Shown here: positions 2,994 through 37,258 of the stretch, piece by piece
Layout: each line of letters opens with the position of its first letter
Numbering within the stretch: the first letter of the stretch is position 1
DNA from: Clostridiaceae bacterium
GTDB lineage: Bacteria; Bacillota; Clostridia; Acetivibrionales; DUMC01
DNA: 45,431 nucleotides
Reading direction: 5' to 3'
Assembly (NCBI GenBank): GCA_012840075.1
Contig: DUMC01000050.1
Coordinates: forward strand, 1 to 45,431
Translations under genes and position numbers: made by a program
The notes under the pieces: generated by a model
Told to the model about the DNA's origin: nothing
What the model saw: only the letters and a program-made list of their open reading frames with translations
The model's database searches: none

Positions 2994-3043
2994 ACAAAAA
3001 CCCCCGTCTTTTAGTTAATAAAAAACTTCCATAATTTGGCTTT

Positions 3044-3099
3044 AAAGGGACACCTTCCAATGTGGTATTTTTCTCATTTACCTTGAAGAGTGTCCCTTT
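3044..3099. repeat. Long inverted repeat (GGGACAC...GTGTCCC)
   Basis: AAAGGGACAC (3044-3053) pairs perfectly with GTGTCCCTTT (3090-3099), and the stem extends inward through CTTC/GAAG with one bulge. It lies between the end of the Gfo/Idh gene and the start of the CheW-like gene, both minus strand. A T-run follows only on the plus side. Its ends resemble the 67-bp hairpin array at 17081, so it may be a dispersed repeat that can also act as a terminator. Confidence 0.7.
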
Positions 3100-3154
3100 T
3101 TGTCTGAGTTTTATTTAAATTATATAATAATTAACCAGATCTTTCAAAGTCAAT

Positions 3155-7317: not shown

Positions 7318-7440
7318 CAGACAGGGGGACGGTTCTCTTGTCTCATGAGACAAGAGAACCGTCCCCTTGTCTGACAAGAGAACCGTCCCCTTGTCTGATG
7401 ACGTGACGCGTGAGACGGAAGAACCGTCCCCCTGTCTCAA
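7318..7440. repeat. Palindromic GGGGACGGTTCTC repeat cluster
   Basis: 7318-7373 is an almost perfect inverted repeat with 27-base arms around a two-base centre (core arm GGGGACGGTTCTCTTGTCTC). A further copy of the right arm (ACAAGAGAACCGTCCCC) follows directly, and a diverged copy with AGAACCGTCCCCCTGTCTCA ends the block at 7440. The block fills the space between convergent araC-type and gpsA genes, and its last copy supplies the TGA stop of gpsA (7437-7439). It behaves like a REP or MITE-type dispersed element and may serve as a two-way terminator. I recall similar GGGGACGGTTCTC units from other Clostridia, but no search was done. Confidence 0.85.
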
Positions 7441-15772: not shown

Positions 15773-17053
15773 CTATTGAAGTTTTATATCATTTAAAGTC
15801 GAAGGTTTAGAGTATTCAAAATATTGGCTGCGAGATTTTGTCTGGGCTTCTATTCTGGAATTATTAATAGAGTCATAATTTTTTGTTAATACTTCTAAAA
15901 TATCTCCGTCTATTGCCATTTCATTAGCCATTCTTTGCATAGTGCTTAAACATGTATCACGATCCATTCCTTTTCTATAAGGTCTGTCTTCAGTAAGCGC
16001 CGTAAATACATCAGCAACTGCCATAATTCTCGAATTGTACGATAGATTGTCAGAGGCTATTCCGAATGGATATCCTGAACCATCCAGCTTTTCATGATGA
16101 AAAGAAGCTATTTCATTTATTTCTTCAAAACCTTTTATTTTTTGGAGGGTTTTGTATGTATAATAAGTATGGGATTTTATTATGTTATATTCCTGAGGGG
16201 CTAATTTACCGGACTTTTCCAATATTTCCGTCGGTACCGCAAGTTTCCCTAAATCGTGTAAAAATCCTGCGATCCTCAGCTTTTTTTGCTCCTCTTCTTC
16301 CAAACCTGTACATTTTCCGAGTTGAGCTGCTACCGCTGAAACACCGCTGGAATGAGTAGCTGTAAATCGGCTTCTGAAGTCTATAATATTCCTGATTAAT
16401 TCTCCGGCGGAAAAAACACTATCTTCATCCAAAACAGTATCATTTACTTTACTTTCATATATTTCACAACTTTTTTCCACGTTTATTATATCCAACCAGA
16501 AAGAAATTGGTTTAGAAACTGCAACAAATGCTTCCACCACATCCGGCATAAATTTCTTACCGGATTCACTTATTATTCGTTTTTTTATGTATGTACTCTG
16601 TCCTATTATTTCGCTTTTTTTATCTGCCAGCACATCTACTCTGTCTGATAAATGTATAATATAGCTTTCAAGAGGAATATCTTCTTCATTATATTCTGAA
16701 ATCCTTCGAGTTTCGTTCCAATTAGCATGATGGTATCTAACAATTTGAGCCGATGCTTCCAATGGTTCATACTTTGCCAATAATCTGTATCCTAGTTCGG
16801 AGTGAATATAAGGGTTGATAATGTCGAACTGCAAAGCATCGAGTCTTTCTTTTAGCGTTATACCTCCACAATCATGTAATAATGATGCTATGAACATGTC
16901 AGTAAGATTTTTGGAAGGTAATCCCATTTTTTCACCGATTACATAGCTGATGTGAGCAACCCTTCTGTGATGTCCGTTTAGAACCGGACTAATCATGTCC
17001 ATAACATCGGCTAGTGCAAGTATTAAATCCAATAGTGATACTTTTAATTTCAT
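15773..17053 (-). CDS. Tandem HD / HD-GYP domain phosphohydrolase
   Basis: This cytoplasmic protein of about 426 residues has two HD-type metal phosphohydrolase domains and no receiver or membrane domain. The first (about 20-150) has HHRRVAH, LLHDCGG and YHHANW. The second (about 230-390) has the full HD-GYP set: HSSGV, FLHDLGKLAVP, SHTYYT, HHEKLDGSGYP and ADVFTALTEDRPYR, which marks likely cyclic di-GMP phosphodiesterases. It may therefore turn over a cyclic dinucleotide signal. I place the start at the second of two ATGs (17053), six bases after GAGG; a GTG at 17065 and the ATG at 17056 are alternatives. The 67-bp hairpin repeat array begins 28 bp upstream, so its promoter must lie in or beyond the array. 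Confidence 0.85.
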   Translation of the reverse strand: MKLKVSLLDLILALADVMDMISPVLNGHHRRVAHISYVIGEKMGLPSKNLTDMFIASLLHDCGGITLKERLDALQFDIINPYIHSELGYRLLAKYEPLEASAQIVRYHHANWNETRRISEYNEEDIPLESYIIHLSDRVDVLADKKSEIIGQSTYIKKRIISESGKKFMPDVVEAFVAVSKPISFWLDIINVEKSCEIYESKVNDTVLDEDSVFSAGELIRNIIDFRSRFTATHSSGVSAVAAQLGKCTGLEEEEQKKLRIAGFLHDLGKLAVPTEILEKSGKLAPQEYNIIKSHTYYTYKTLQKIKGFEEINEIASFHHEKLDGSGYPFGIASDNLSYNSRIMAVADVFTALTEDRPYRKGMDRDTCLSTMQRMANEMAIDGDILEVLTKNYDSINNSRIEAQTKSRSQYFEYSKPSTLNDIKLQ

Positions 17054-17080
17054 CATAGACCTCACGACCTCTTAAGGTAA

Positions 17081-17330
17081 GGGGACACACCTCTCTGAAT
17101 AACCAGTATTCCTCTGGAGGGAGGAATGTCCCCTTTTGATTATGTAAAAGGACACACCTCTCTGAATAACCAGTATTCCTCTGGGGAGAGGAATGTCCCC
17201 TCTTGATCATGTGAAGGGACACACCTCGCTCGAGTTGAGGGAATTTCTTATGGGTTGAGGAATGTCCACTTATGATTACACTTTGATTACACGCTGTGGG
17301 ATATCTCTTTGTGATGAAGAAAAATGTCCT
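17081..17330. repeat. Tandem array of ~67-bp hairpin-forming repeats
   Basis: The unit begins GGGGACACACCTCTCTGAAT and ends GAGGAATGTCCCC. The GACACACCTC box recurs at 17084, 17151 and 17218, an exact 67-bp period. Copies 1 and 2 are nearly identical, copy 3 is diverged, and a fourth remnant ending AAATGTCCTC follows to about 17330. Each unit can fold on itself through GGACA/TGTCC and CCTCTC/GAGAGG. The array fills the spacer between gatB and the HD-GYP gene (17054-17432), and the rest of that spacer (17331-17432) shows nothing else. Confidence 0.88.
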
Positions 17331-17432
17331 CCGATGTTTCCTTGTGAAGTTGATTTTGCAACGTACCCTCAGGATATTAACTCTTTTCGCCGGCTCTACA
17401 CTTTAACTTACTTCTACAGCTTTCAATCCAAC

Positions 17433-18863
17433 TCACTTCGACAGCTCTTCAATCAGGAGCTTATTCACAAGTTTAGGATCCGCTTTACCTTTAGTTGCTT
17501 TCATGACTTGACCAACAAGAAAACCTAATGCTTTAGTTTTTCCTCCCTTATAGTCTGCAACGGAACCAGGATTGTTTTCCATAACTTCCAAAACAATTTT
17601 TCTAATTGCATTCTCATCAGCTACAACCTGTAAACCTTCTTCCTTTACTATGGTTTCAGGATCTTTACCTGTATCAAACATTTTTACAAATACTTTCTTG
17701 GCTATACTTCCACTGATAATTCCTTTATCAATTAATGAAATCAAGCTTGCCAAGTGTTCAGCAGGAAAAGGTATCTCCTCTGCTTCCATTTCTCTTTCTT
17801 TAAGGATACGCAGCAGATCTCCCATTATCCAATTGCTTACTGCTTTGGCATTATTACTATGCTGTACGGCTTTTTCAAAAAAGTCTGACAAAACTTTCGA
17901 TGAGGTCAATATATTTGCGTCATATTCAGGTAATGAAAATTCCCTGACATATCTTTCCTTTCTTGCATCAGGAAGCTCCGGGAGCGAAGATCTTATTCTT
18001 TCAATCCATTCACTATCTATTATAATCGGAGGCAGGTCAGGTTCAGGGAAATATCTGTAGTCTTCAGCCTGTTCCTTGTCCCTCATAGCATAGCTTATAC
18101 CTTTATTATCATCCCATCTTCTTGTTTCCCTGTATACGACTCCTCCGGATTCAATCTCTTCTATTTGCCTCTTTGCCTCATACTCTATTGCCCTTACGAT
18201 AGCTTTAAAAGAATTAAGATTTTTCATTTCGGTTCTTACTCCAAATTCTTCCTGACCTTTTGGTCTTACTGAAAGATTAACATCAGCTCTTAGAGAACCT
18301 TCCTGCATCTTACAATCAGATACGTCTATAAACTGCAATATGGCTTTTAGTTTCTCAAGAAAAGCCCTTGCTTCTTCTGCAGATCTCATATCAGGTTCGG
18401 TAACTATCTCTATTAAAGGCGTGCCTGCCCTGTTGTAATCTACCAGCGTCCCTGTTCCATAATCGCTGTGAATAAGCTTTCCCGCATCTTCCTCCATATG
18501 AATGTGGTGTATTCTAATGGGCTTTTTCTTCCCATTTACATCTATTTCTATATATCCGTTTCGGCATATTGGGTATTTGTGCTGGGAAATCTGGTAAGCA
18601 CCCGGTAAATCAGGATAAAAATAGTTTTTTCTATCCATTCTGGTAAATTTTGAAATTGTGCAATTCATAGCAAGTCCGGCTTTAATGGCGTATTCAATAA
18701 CACTTTTATTCATTACCGGCAAAACTCCGGGCATGCCTGAGCAACCAGGACAACAGTGGGTATTTGGATCTCCTCCAAATTCATTTATACATGAACAGAA
18801 AATTTTCGAATTAGTAGAAAGTTCTGCGTGTACCTCCAAACCTATTACTACTTCATAGTCCAT
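17433..18863 (-). CDS. gatB: Asp/Glu-tRNA(Asn/Gln) amidotransferase subunit B
   Basis: GatB is the tRNA-binding and kinase subunit of GatCAB, which converts misacylated Glu-tRNA(Gln) and Asp-tRNA(Asn) to the correct amides. The 476-residue protein opens with [14 protein letters not shown] and shows the zinc-type cysteines CSC and [13 protein letters not shown], then [18 protein letters not shown], and a C-terminal YqeY-like tail ending in [18 protein letters not shown] start it at the ATG at 18863 after AGAGGTG; the frame is open further upstream but there it runs into an inverted repeat. It follows gatA in the gatC-gatA-gatB operon. Confidence 0.96.
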
Positions 18864-18904
18864 AAGAATTTCACCTCTCGTTGTTGTGTATAAATAGGGA
18901 CCTG

Positions 18905-18971
18905 GGGTCGGGCTTGAAAAATTCACTTATGTGGAAAACAATTCAATTTTTCAATTATTCAAGCTTGACCC
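18905..18971. repeat. Inverted repeat between gatA and gatB
   Basis: GGGTCGGGCTTGAA (18905-18918) pairs with TTCAAGCTTGACCC (18958-18971); 12 of 14 positions are Watson-Crick and the other two can wobble in RNA. The loop is about 39 AT-rich bases. It fills most of the gatA-gatB spacer (18864-18979), an unusual interruption of an operon that is normally tightly packed. Confidence 0.75.
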
Positions 18972-20822: not shown

Positions 20823-21404
20823 TTATTTTTTTACTATTATATCTTCCAGTTTTCTTTTCGGAACGTGTAGCACACCTTTTTCGTCCTTGTAGTACTTTAT
20901 CGAATCCACCATCTCTTCAACAATAGGTTCTTCTCCTTTATACCCTAATGCTATTACACTGTTTATTACAAGATAATCTTCAATATTAAAGAGCTTCCTT
21001 ACCGCATCTCTGTCAACTGAACCTATCCAGCATGTTCCTATTCCTTCTTCCTCAGCAGTAAGGAGGATATTTTGTATAGCTGCACCAATGTCCAGTTCAT
21101 ATCCGCTTTTTCTAATTCTTGTATCAGCTAAAACAATGATATATACTACCGGTTCCTCCCCTTCTTTGGGATTTCCTTCAGGTGCTATGTAGCCGGCCCA
21201 CCTGACATATTTGAACATTTCCTTTACTTTTTCATCATCATCTACAATGATATATTTGACAGGCTGCAGGTTAGATGCAGAAGGTGCATGACGTGCTGCA
21301 TTTATTAATTTTGTAAGAATTGAAGGTTCAATTTTAATCTGTTTGAACTTTCTAATCGTTCTTCTTTTCAAGATAAGTTCATACGTATTAATAGTAATCA
21401 CCAA
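20823..21404 (-). CDS. Nitroreductase-family FMN flavoprotein
   Basis: The 193-residue protein shows the nitroreductase fold signatures: the N-terminal FMN-binding RRTIRKF, AARHAPSASNLQPVKYIIV, and LTAEEEGIGTCWIGS before a C-terminal ALGYKGEEP. Family members reduce nitro compounds, quinones or other electrophiles with NAD(P)H, and the natural substrate is usually unknown. The start is uncertain: TTG at 21404 and GTG at 21401 both sit just after AGAAGG and there is no nearby ATG. It precedes gatC in the same direction. Confidence 0.85.
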   Translation of the reverse strand: MVITINTYELILKRRTIRKFKQIKIEPSILTKLINAARHAPSASNLQPVKYIIVDDDEKVKEMFKYVRWAGYIAPEGNPKEGEEPVVYIIVLADTRIRKSGYELDIGAAIQNILLTAEEEGIGTCWIGSVDRDAVRKLFNIEDYLVINSVIALGYKGEEPIVEEMVDSIKYYKDEKGVLHVPKRKLEDIIVKK

Positions 21405-36049: not shown

Positions 36050-37258
36050 ATGAAAAACAAAATTCTGTTTACAAAAAGAGCAATTTTATCACTGACATTA
36101 ATCTTTACCCTTGCATTTACCGCATGCAATTCAGATAATAATGCTTATAACGAACAAAATAAAGAAAACAGCGTATATAATGAGCAAAGTAAAGAAAACG
36201 ACATAACTAATCAAAATAAAGAAAACGGCGCAATTAATCAAAATAATAAAAACAGTGAAAATGAAGACAATGAAATAAAGGATGCTGAAAAAGAATTAAA
36301 AGTAGAAGATTTTTTCCCTTTTCAAAAGGATGTTTATATGAAATATAAAGGAATAGGCAATGAATATGCGGAATATGAAACTTATGTCGAATTCATTAAC
36401 GGTGATCTTATGCAAATAAGAAATCTTAATCCAGGAACTAATGCAGTCATGGTATATGAAATAAAAGACGGCGAGCTTCGCTTGAACTTCATAAAAGGAG
36501 AAGTTTATTACAGACATGATTTTACAAATGTTAAAGATGATGACAGGCTTGAAATTTTAATTAAAGAACCAATTAAAAAAGGTACTGCCTGGACACTAAA
36601 AGACGGCACAAAAAGAAGCATTACCGAAGTAAATAAGGAGATTTCAACACCTTTAGGTAACTTTTTAGCTTTAGAAATTACCAGCGAAAATGAACGTTCT
36701 ATTATAAAAGACTATTATGTTAAAGACATAGGTCATGTAAAAAGAATTTTTACATTAAAAGACGGTGATTACACTGTAACAAGCGAGCTTGAAAAAATTG
36801 AAAAAGGTGTGCCTTTGAAAGAAACTATAAAATTTTTCTATCCTGATTTCTTGAATGACAGATTGGTATACATAAATAAAGAAGTAGAATTATATACCAA
36901 TCAAGATATTAAAAGTGTCATCGAAGAGAAATTAAAAAATGTACCTGAAAATAGTCAATTAACAAAGCCTCTTTCAGAGAACACAAGATTATTATATATT
37001 ATTATCGAAGATCCCATGAGCGATATCATCGACCATCTGGTAGTAGATTTTTCAAAAGAATTGGTAACTGAAATGAATGCAGGTTCATCTTTGGAAGGCA
37101 TGATATTACAAAGTATAACAAATACTTTTTGCAGATATTATCAGACAGCACAAGTCCAAATCACATTGGAAGGGAATTTATATGAATCCGGGCATTTTCT
37201 CCTTAAACCTGACGAATATTTCACGGTTGACCTGGAGAATTCCGTTGAATATAAATAA
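36050..37258 (+). CDS. GerMN-domain lipoprotein
   Basis: The 402-residue protein has a lipoprotein signal with lipobox cysteine C26 (LAFTAC). It is followed by a Asn/Glu/Lys-rich linker built of four diverged repeats of about ten residues (YNEQNKENSV, YNEQSKENDI and so on), a beta-rich middle domain, and a C-terminal GerMN domain (about 265-390) with VVDFSKELV-x-EMNAGSSLEGMILQSITNTF. GerMN domains occur in the spore germination protein GerM and in other envelope proteins. It is probably lipid-anchored outside the membrane, with a possible sporulation or wall role. I start it at ATG 36050 after TTGGAGG. It is transcribed divergently from the Rrf2 gene and ends next to a palindromic hairpin. 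Confidence 0.85.
   Translation: MKNKILFTKRAILSLTLIFTLAFTACNSDNNAYNEQNKENSVYNEQSKENDITNQNKENGAINQNNKNSENEDNEIKDAEKELKVEDFFPFQKDVYMKYKGIGNEYAEYETYVEFINGDLMQIRNLNPGTNAVMVYEIKDGELRLNFIKGEVYYRHDFTNVKDDDRLEILIKEPIKKGTAWTLKDGTKRSITEVNKEISTPLGNFLALEITSENERSIIKDYYVKDIGHVKRIFTLKDGDYTVTSELEKIEKGVPLKETIKFFYPDFLNDRLVYINKEVELYTNQDIKSVIEEKLKNVPENSQLTKPLSENTRLLYIIIEDPMSDIIDHLVVDFSKELVTEMNAGSSLEGMILQSITNTFCRYYQTAQVQITLEGNLYESGHFLLKPDEYFTVDLENSVEYK

Follow-up and report, generated by a model that had tools for sequence, protein, structure and literature searches.

Hairpin units upstream of an HD-GYP gene are local copies of a dispersed, probably mobile element of Clostridia

Introduction

Several described kinds of short bacterial repeat come close to the element reported here. 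TIRYT proteins are Y1 proteins with inverted-repeat ends, and the consensus of these ends is GGGGWSAS (PMC3733652; PMC6006769). For the REPs of the described subclasses, GT[AG]G is placed at the hairpin foot (PMC6006769). RUP, NEMIS, and ERIC, named in PMC3733652, are bacterial MITEs.

In this study, we analyzed a stretch of 45,431 nucleotides from a Clostridiaceae bacterium (hereafter the window), in which a hairpin array lies ahead of an HD-GYP gene. The array consists of local copies of a dispersed element and is not a control switch made for the HD-GYP gene. From lead-in to tail, the element measures ~30-130 bp. The family has a compensated stem, constant ends with varying loops, and empty sites, and it shows local tandem duplication as well as nesting elsewhere. 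We assign a probability of about 0.63 to the reading that the units are short non-autonomous mobile hairpin copies, spread through this genome and other Clostridia and moved as single-stranded DNA by a Y1 (HUH) transposase of the RAYT/TIRYT class.

Similar to the TIR repeats of TIRYT proteins (TnpA_REP subclass 2.1), the element occurs as single copies, dimers, or clusters in genomes with Y1 transposases, and its consensus head GGGGACAC, derived from 34 copies, fits GGGGWSAS. In contrast, the opposite end GGGGACAT misses the last consensus position, no fetched Y1 gene lies between copies of the element, the loop is variable, the lead-in is TAAGGTWA, and some copies are nested. With the REP/REPIN/BIME repeats of RAYT (TnpA_REP) proteins it shares the short, intergenic, non-coding hairpin made by two inverted ends, the many copies, and the clusters. 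However, its arrays are head-to-tail or nested rather than alternating, and the flank profiles contain no GT[AG]G at its foot, where TAAGGTWA stands on one side and either TTTTGATT (own genome) or mostly AA...AT (other genomes) on the opposite side. In its behavior, the element resembles a REP or TIR repeat, yet it lacks one defining feature of each. Bacterial MITEs such as RUP, NEMIS, and ERIC are likewise non-autonomous, have inverted ends, lie beside genes, and can fold in mRNA, whereas the element is shorter, has no detected target duplication, and co-occurs with a transposase of class Y1. Finally, the GGGGACGGTTCT-type hairpins at RAYT genes of Clostridia also have a GGGGAC foot and reiterated ends, but they continue with other sequence after GGGGAC and flank transposase genes. 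Among the matches listed, we found no description of the element sequences in the open-licence literature.

Results

Structure of the array

Copies were scored with R1, a covariance model built from 34 copies. The relevant features of the window are as follows.

3034..3110, + strand: weak R1 match, 23.8 bits, E 2e-4, AAAGGGACAC...GTGTCCCTTTTT
15773..17065, - strand: HD-GYP gene, 430 aa from GTG; Pfam HD_5, 4.2e-53, two stretches
17073..17133, + strand: copy 1, lead-in TAAGGTAA (17073-17080) and core GGGGACACACC...GGAATGTCCCC (17081-17133)
17134..17147, + strand: spacer between copies 1 and 2, opening with TTTTGATT
17148..17200, + strand: core of copy 2, 67 bp beyond copy 1
17215..17269, + strand: core of copy 3, diverged, 72-74% identical to copies 1 and 2
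17433..18926, - strand: gatB, Pfam GatB_N 1.6e-125, upstream of the HD-GYP gene

The array comprises three head-to-tail hairpin units with a period of 67 bp, and a tandem-repeat scan of the window places a 67-bp repeat at 17083-17227 (2.2 copies, 92% matches, score 248). The 14-mer head motif lies at 17082, 17149, and 17216; with up to three mismatches, it has 6 matches in the window against 0.83 expected, a number equalled in 0 of 100 shuffles. The stem of each unit is formed by GGGGACA/TGTCCCC together with CCTC/GAGG and is shortened in copy 2, which begins AAGGACA. On the + strand, copies 1, 2, and 3 fold at -28.1, -21.7, and -20.2 kcal/mol, with z-scores of -3.3 (-3.25 before rounding), -2.6, and -2.7. 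With filters off, copy 1 reaches 82.5 bits with R1 (E 3.9e-21). Copy 2 gives 48.8 bits as a local match over 17150-17198 and 71.5 bits for 17136-17213 in the genome search, and copy 3 gives 73.0 bits (E 2e-18) over 17203-17282.

The cores of copies 1 and 2 are 92.7% identical and look like a recent duplication. Compared with copies 1 and 2, copy 3 has identities of 71.9% and 73.7%, respectively, which is about as distant as family members of different sites (mean 67%). The original prediction had described an exact 67-bp period with two near-identical copies, a diverged third copy, and a fold through GGGGACA/TGTCCCC plus an inner pair, all of which are borne out by these values. It had also described the remnant of a fourth copy, which would lie at ~17283-17330; this remnant is unsupported because R1, searched with filters off up to E = 10, lists no match there. 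The proposed graded decay through amplification from one end finds no support: a single recent duplication appears to account for copies 1 and 2, copy 3 is little closer to them than members of separate sites, and a fourth copy was not detected.

Several other repeats were seen in the window. The weak R1 match at 3034-3110 is either a degenerate relative of the element or an unrelated terminator-like hairpin. A 25-bp repeat pair at 17405-17454 overlaps the gatB end, and tandem 27-bp units lie inside an ORF at 36147-36253. Moreover, a second, different hairpin cluster at 7324-7432, between an AraC-type gene and a glycerol-3-phosphate dehydrogenase gene, consists of GGGGACGGTTCTCTTGTC and three reversed ends and is of the type flanking RAYT genes in other Clostridia.

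Dispersal of the unit and conservation of its stem

Searched as DNA against the genome to which the window belongs (3.78 Mb, a 193-contig draft), the unit gave 38 matches. The genome search with R1 gave at least 90 matches at E <= 0.1, some of which are one place read on both strands; because only 150 of 1108 first-look candidates were scored, the copy counts are lower bounds. The copy set was taken as 57 of the 58 matches of at least 42 bits, with one excluded that is cut by a contig end. At least 57 copies, including the three of the array, thus lie at 42 or more sites, and the unit, far from being unique to this locus, belongs to a dispersed family. By a simple longest-ORF caller, 38 of the 42 sites are intergenic.

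Two or three copies are present at 12 of the 42 sites, and all copies share one orientation in 11 of these 12. The mean identity is 78% within an array (18 pairs) and 67% between arrays. Only 10 of the 27 copies of multi-copy arrays have their nearest relative in their own array, and local duplication therefore does not explain most arrays. Short-loop, tight tandem arrays with a period of ~42-44 bp were also observed in this genome (G000:C116:82307-82444 and C107:35018-35214), the latter with the 29-bp core GGGGACACACCTCTTCGAGGAATGTCCCC.

Beyond this genome, the pattern TRAGGTWARGGGACACACC was found in at least 109 stretches of genome contigs, from at least 38 isolates by title. Among the matches listed, nearly all titles carry labels of Firmicutes or Clostridia, and the isolates are mostly Clostridia (Desulfotomaculum, Desulfocucumis, Peptococcaceae, Syntrophomonadaceae, Dethiobacter, Ruminiclostridium, and MAGs), and the exceptions are one Citrobacter and one MAG labelled Desulfovibrio; the Citrobacter match, which has no tail, is probably due to chance. 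The ends TAAGGTWAGGGGACACACC ... GGAATGTCCCC are constant in many other Clostridia, while the inner stem and the loop vary. In the collected loci, 111 of 129 heads are followed by a tail within 130 bp; for the other 18, the tail is absent from the stretch or further off, in some cases since the stretch ends. A longer autonomous element between such ends was considered and rejected on this count, which covers the spacing of heads and tails. Heads inside a called ORF number 24 of 110 in the collected loci, according to a simple caller whose ORFs may be spurious.

RNAalifold gave a 12-pair stem. In the outer stem, compared over 34 distinct copies, pairing holds in 95% of cells, and two-sided changes number 15 against 3.5 in shuffles (0 of 500 equal); compensatory changes preserve the paired stem. 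An overlapping second helix inside the element, ATTCCT/AGGAAT, has 97% of its cells paired and constitutes weaker evidence because a two-sided change is found in just 2 cells. The covariation is blind to the form in which the hairpin is used, since pairing in either DNA strand or in RNA gives an equal signal.

Empty sites and insertion marks

For seven plus seven loci from two species of one genus, blastn matches are limited to 48-89 bp around the element (78-100% identity), with the exception of one locus pair that matches over 374 bp. In the genome G099, the element lies between a flagellin-domain gene and flgK. The flagellin-flgK stretch of the sister species G127 aligns over 2357 positions at 80% without the element, and G127 has a further, related stretch in which a different element sits elsewhere in the gap. 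Furthermore, G099 has an element between a peptidase gene and pyrG that is absent at that site in the sisters G173 and G127; the peptidase-pyrG gap of G127 contains ~400 bp of other sequence further upstream. For the pyrG site, gain in G099 is the simpler reading. Exactly this unit has been gained or lost at orthologous sites; with two sites of another genus unoccupied in sister species, insertion or loss involves the unit as a whole.

Being short and dispersed, with inverted-repeat ends and existing empty sites, the element might also be a classical MITE, that is, a non-autonomous inverted-repeat element with a DDE transposase and target-site duplication. However, no target-site duplication beyond chance was detected in 67 elements (best z 3.7 against maxima of 2.7-5.6 in 15 shuffles), a test that is weak on decayed copies. 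The one unrelated transposase family used as a control, which is of the IS110 type with no DDE family among the controls, is not enriched in carriers either (5 of 12 genomes with the strict hairpin pattern against 75 of 233 without it, P 0.35). We therefore consider a classical MITE unlikely.

Co-occurrence with Y1 (HUH) transposases

Y1_Tnp (PF01797) was found in 145 of 245 genomes of the class, comprising all 12 strict-hairpin genomes and 133 of the 233 without the pattern (P 0.0015). The association is sharper for Y1 proteins similar to L031 (E <= 1e-30), which are present in 41 of 245 genomes, with 11 of 12 against 30 of 233 (P 9e-9). Inside the six families that include a positive genome, a comparison that is the only control for kinship, the numbers are 11 of 12 and 7 of 26 (P 2e-4). 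The strict pattern undercounts carriers: G127 has zero copies by pattern and many by BLAST. Y1_Tnp matches were found in 15 of 16 genomes picked for the head pattern; the exception (G016) is a MAG whose completeness is not given.

L031 (G000:C124) is the sole intact Y1 gene found in the window's genome, where two other matches are broken. It belongs to a long subgroup (~314 aa), is nearest to the NCBIfam REP-associated tyrosine transposase at a score below the cut-off (48.1 of 80 bits), and has GGGGACATTTCTT upstream, near the element's GGGGACATTCC end. None of the 114 Y1 loci fetched has its gene bounded by the element; a complete copy is present only at L203, and there on a single side. Because of this count and of the carrier MAG lacking a Y1 match, we can only infer the mover; the best-supported candidate is a Y1 (HUH) tyrosine transposase of the RAYT/TIRYT class.

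The sequences around the Y1 genes were also compared with the element. GGGGAC[AG]G occurs near 51 of 86 Y1 loci, compared with 81 of 400 stretches taken from the collected loci as background; these 86 are what is left of the 114 after removal of 14 IS200-type loci, 2 remnants, 1 repeat of L031, and L273-L283. In these genomes, hairpins of the GGGGACGGTTCT type flank many of the Y1 genes, and some have reiterated ends. In G099, which has young insertions, the L031-like gene (L272) is flanked by GGGGACGGTTCT and not by the element, the flank being partly masked. At L198, L262, L268, and L270, the Y1 genes have several reiterated GGGGACGGTTCT ends on one or both sides, a habit also seen in the element. 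Near 24 long-type Y1 loci, CTCAA follows 20 of 99 GGGAC sites, compared with 2 of 188 near 28 short-type loci, 3 of 1138 in the background, and 7 of 41 element tails in the own genome; this motif is suggestive only, because it was chosen after looking.

Tandem and nested growth

Heads and tails either alternate, as in the tandem array of the window, or nest, with one hairpin within the loop of another. Among 52 clusters with at least two heads and at least two tails (<=1 mismatch), 22 have all heads before all tails, against 5.5 expected at random order, and 15 alternate purely. Equal numbers of heads and tails are found in only 10 of the 22 nested clusters. L075 has four heads and then four tails (<=2 mismatches). 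In a Dethiobacter MAG (L070), eight or nine reiterated heads are followed by only three tails, and heads can therefore multiply without tails. Since so few nested clusters are balanced and L070 is rich in heads, heads and tails may also duplicate separately.

Five nested loci of the own genome (L004, L007, L019, L025, and L027) share the flanks TTGCAW[inner]WTGTWATG, which L044 and L061 do not. L019 and L027 are alike in both outer and inner loops, a likeness that suggests that a composite nested unit may have moved as one. A tentative proposal, to which we give clearly less than even odds, is that mobile hairpins of Clostridia target their own loops, which would produce nested 'Russian-doll' arrays (heads^n loop tails^n) as well as tandem arrays, with composites moving whole. 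If true, the transposition machinery would prefer single-stranded hairpin loops as targets, and the element would grow without hitting genes.

Relation to neighboring genes and leader RNA

The hairpins could instead be kept as RNA cis elements (terminator, mRNA stabiliser, or processing site), with mobility being secondary or ancient. The compensatory stem changes agree with such a role, as do the gene positions in the own genome. Of the 35 sites that lie between two ORFs, 13 have a gene start no more than 40 nt from the head side (TAAGG...) and 0 have one that near the tail side (P 0.0002); for gene ends at this distance, the counts are 11 and 12, respectively. In addition, three terminator-like sites were predicted in 16950-17500 against 0.4 expected; copies 1 and 2 contain two of these sites, on the strand of the HD-GYP gene. 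The tails of the own genome are followed by TTTTGATT, the majority right flank in a profile of 29 tails, and the pyrG element of G099 lies, by eye, just downstream of a promoter-like TTGACT...TATAAT.

However, the rule that gene starts lie only on the head side, strong in the own genome, fails in other genomes. Of 94 arrays in the collected loci, 18 are inside a called ORF (which may be spurious) and 19 are too near the stretch end; the 57 arrays of other genomes that lie between two ORFs have a gene start at most 40 nt from the tail side in 8 cases and from the head side in 13. Moreover, sister species differ in the presence of the element, and the T run is mostly missing from tails of other genomes, whose right flank is mostly AA...AT in the flank profiles. 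Taken over its full 380 nt, the leader is no more stable than shuffled sequence (z -0.9); its minimum-energy structure has copy 1 paired within itself (18 pairs) and copies 2 and 3 paired with one another (18 pairs). Weighing both sides, we hold a role as RNA cis elements to be as improbable as a classical MITE.

At the locus itself, the product of 15773..17065 has two HD matches and, by eye in the translation, an HHExxDGxGYP signature, which we take to mark an HD-GYP protein. Its longest ORF starts from the GTG at 17065, and ATG codons lie at 17056-17054 and 17053-17051. The core of copy 1 starts 28 bp from the ATG with first base 17053, so the predicted distance of 28 bp upstream of the start is true for this ATG. 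The original prediction further held that the array would be transcribed in the leader or contain the promoter. The leader location is plausible because gatB and the HD-GYP gene are co-directional and the array sits in the gap between them; the promoter finds no such backing, as the scan around the array gave one weak site against 1.3 expected, which is not beyond chance.

The position 28 bp upstream of an ATG would suit a regulatory leader (attenuator or riboswitch-like) specific to the HD-GYP gene. Such a leader is very improbable and is ruled out by dispersal, as the element occurs at 41 other sites of the genome, and an Rfam scan of the window gave 0 matches at the gathering threshold. Pausing or processing of the leader specific to this gene, as had been suggested, is unsupported for the same reason of the 41 other sites. 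The loci of 11 HD-GYP relatives, one of which (L308) was read only inside the gene, contain no head or tail motif with up to one mismatch, although these relatives, only 40-57% identical, are too distant to serve as a presence/absence test for the array. In a genome of the same family (G297, L307), the ORF just before the HD-GYP relative ends, by eye, like the window ORF 20823-21404, and the gatCAB stretch does not seem to lie between that ORF and the HD-GYP relative. The 193-contig draft and the near-identity of copies 1 and 2 would fit an assembly artefact or a private tandem repeat, but these copies differ at several positions and tandem arrays of the element also occur in other assemblies, which leaves hardly any room for this explanation.

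Discussion

Under the mobile-element reading, a Y1 (HUH) tyrosine transposase would recognise the hairpin with its GGGGAC foot and move the element as single-stranded DNA. One element would have inserted just upstream of the HD-GYP start, part of the array would then have formed by head-to-tail duplication, and whatever it did to the leader RNA would be incidental. An effect of the array on HD-GYP expression is possible; the array should not be taken as a regulator of c-di-GMP signalling without an expression test.

For the family as a whole, this work delimits a mobile hairpin family across Clostridia. Its natural empty sites, together with the tandem and nested arrays, provide material for reading the insertion rule. 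Collectively, the results link this hairpin family to a little-studied transposase class whose recognised DNA is uncertain.
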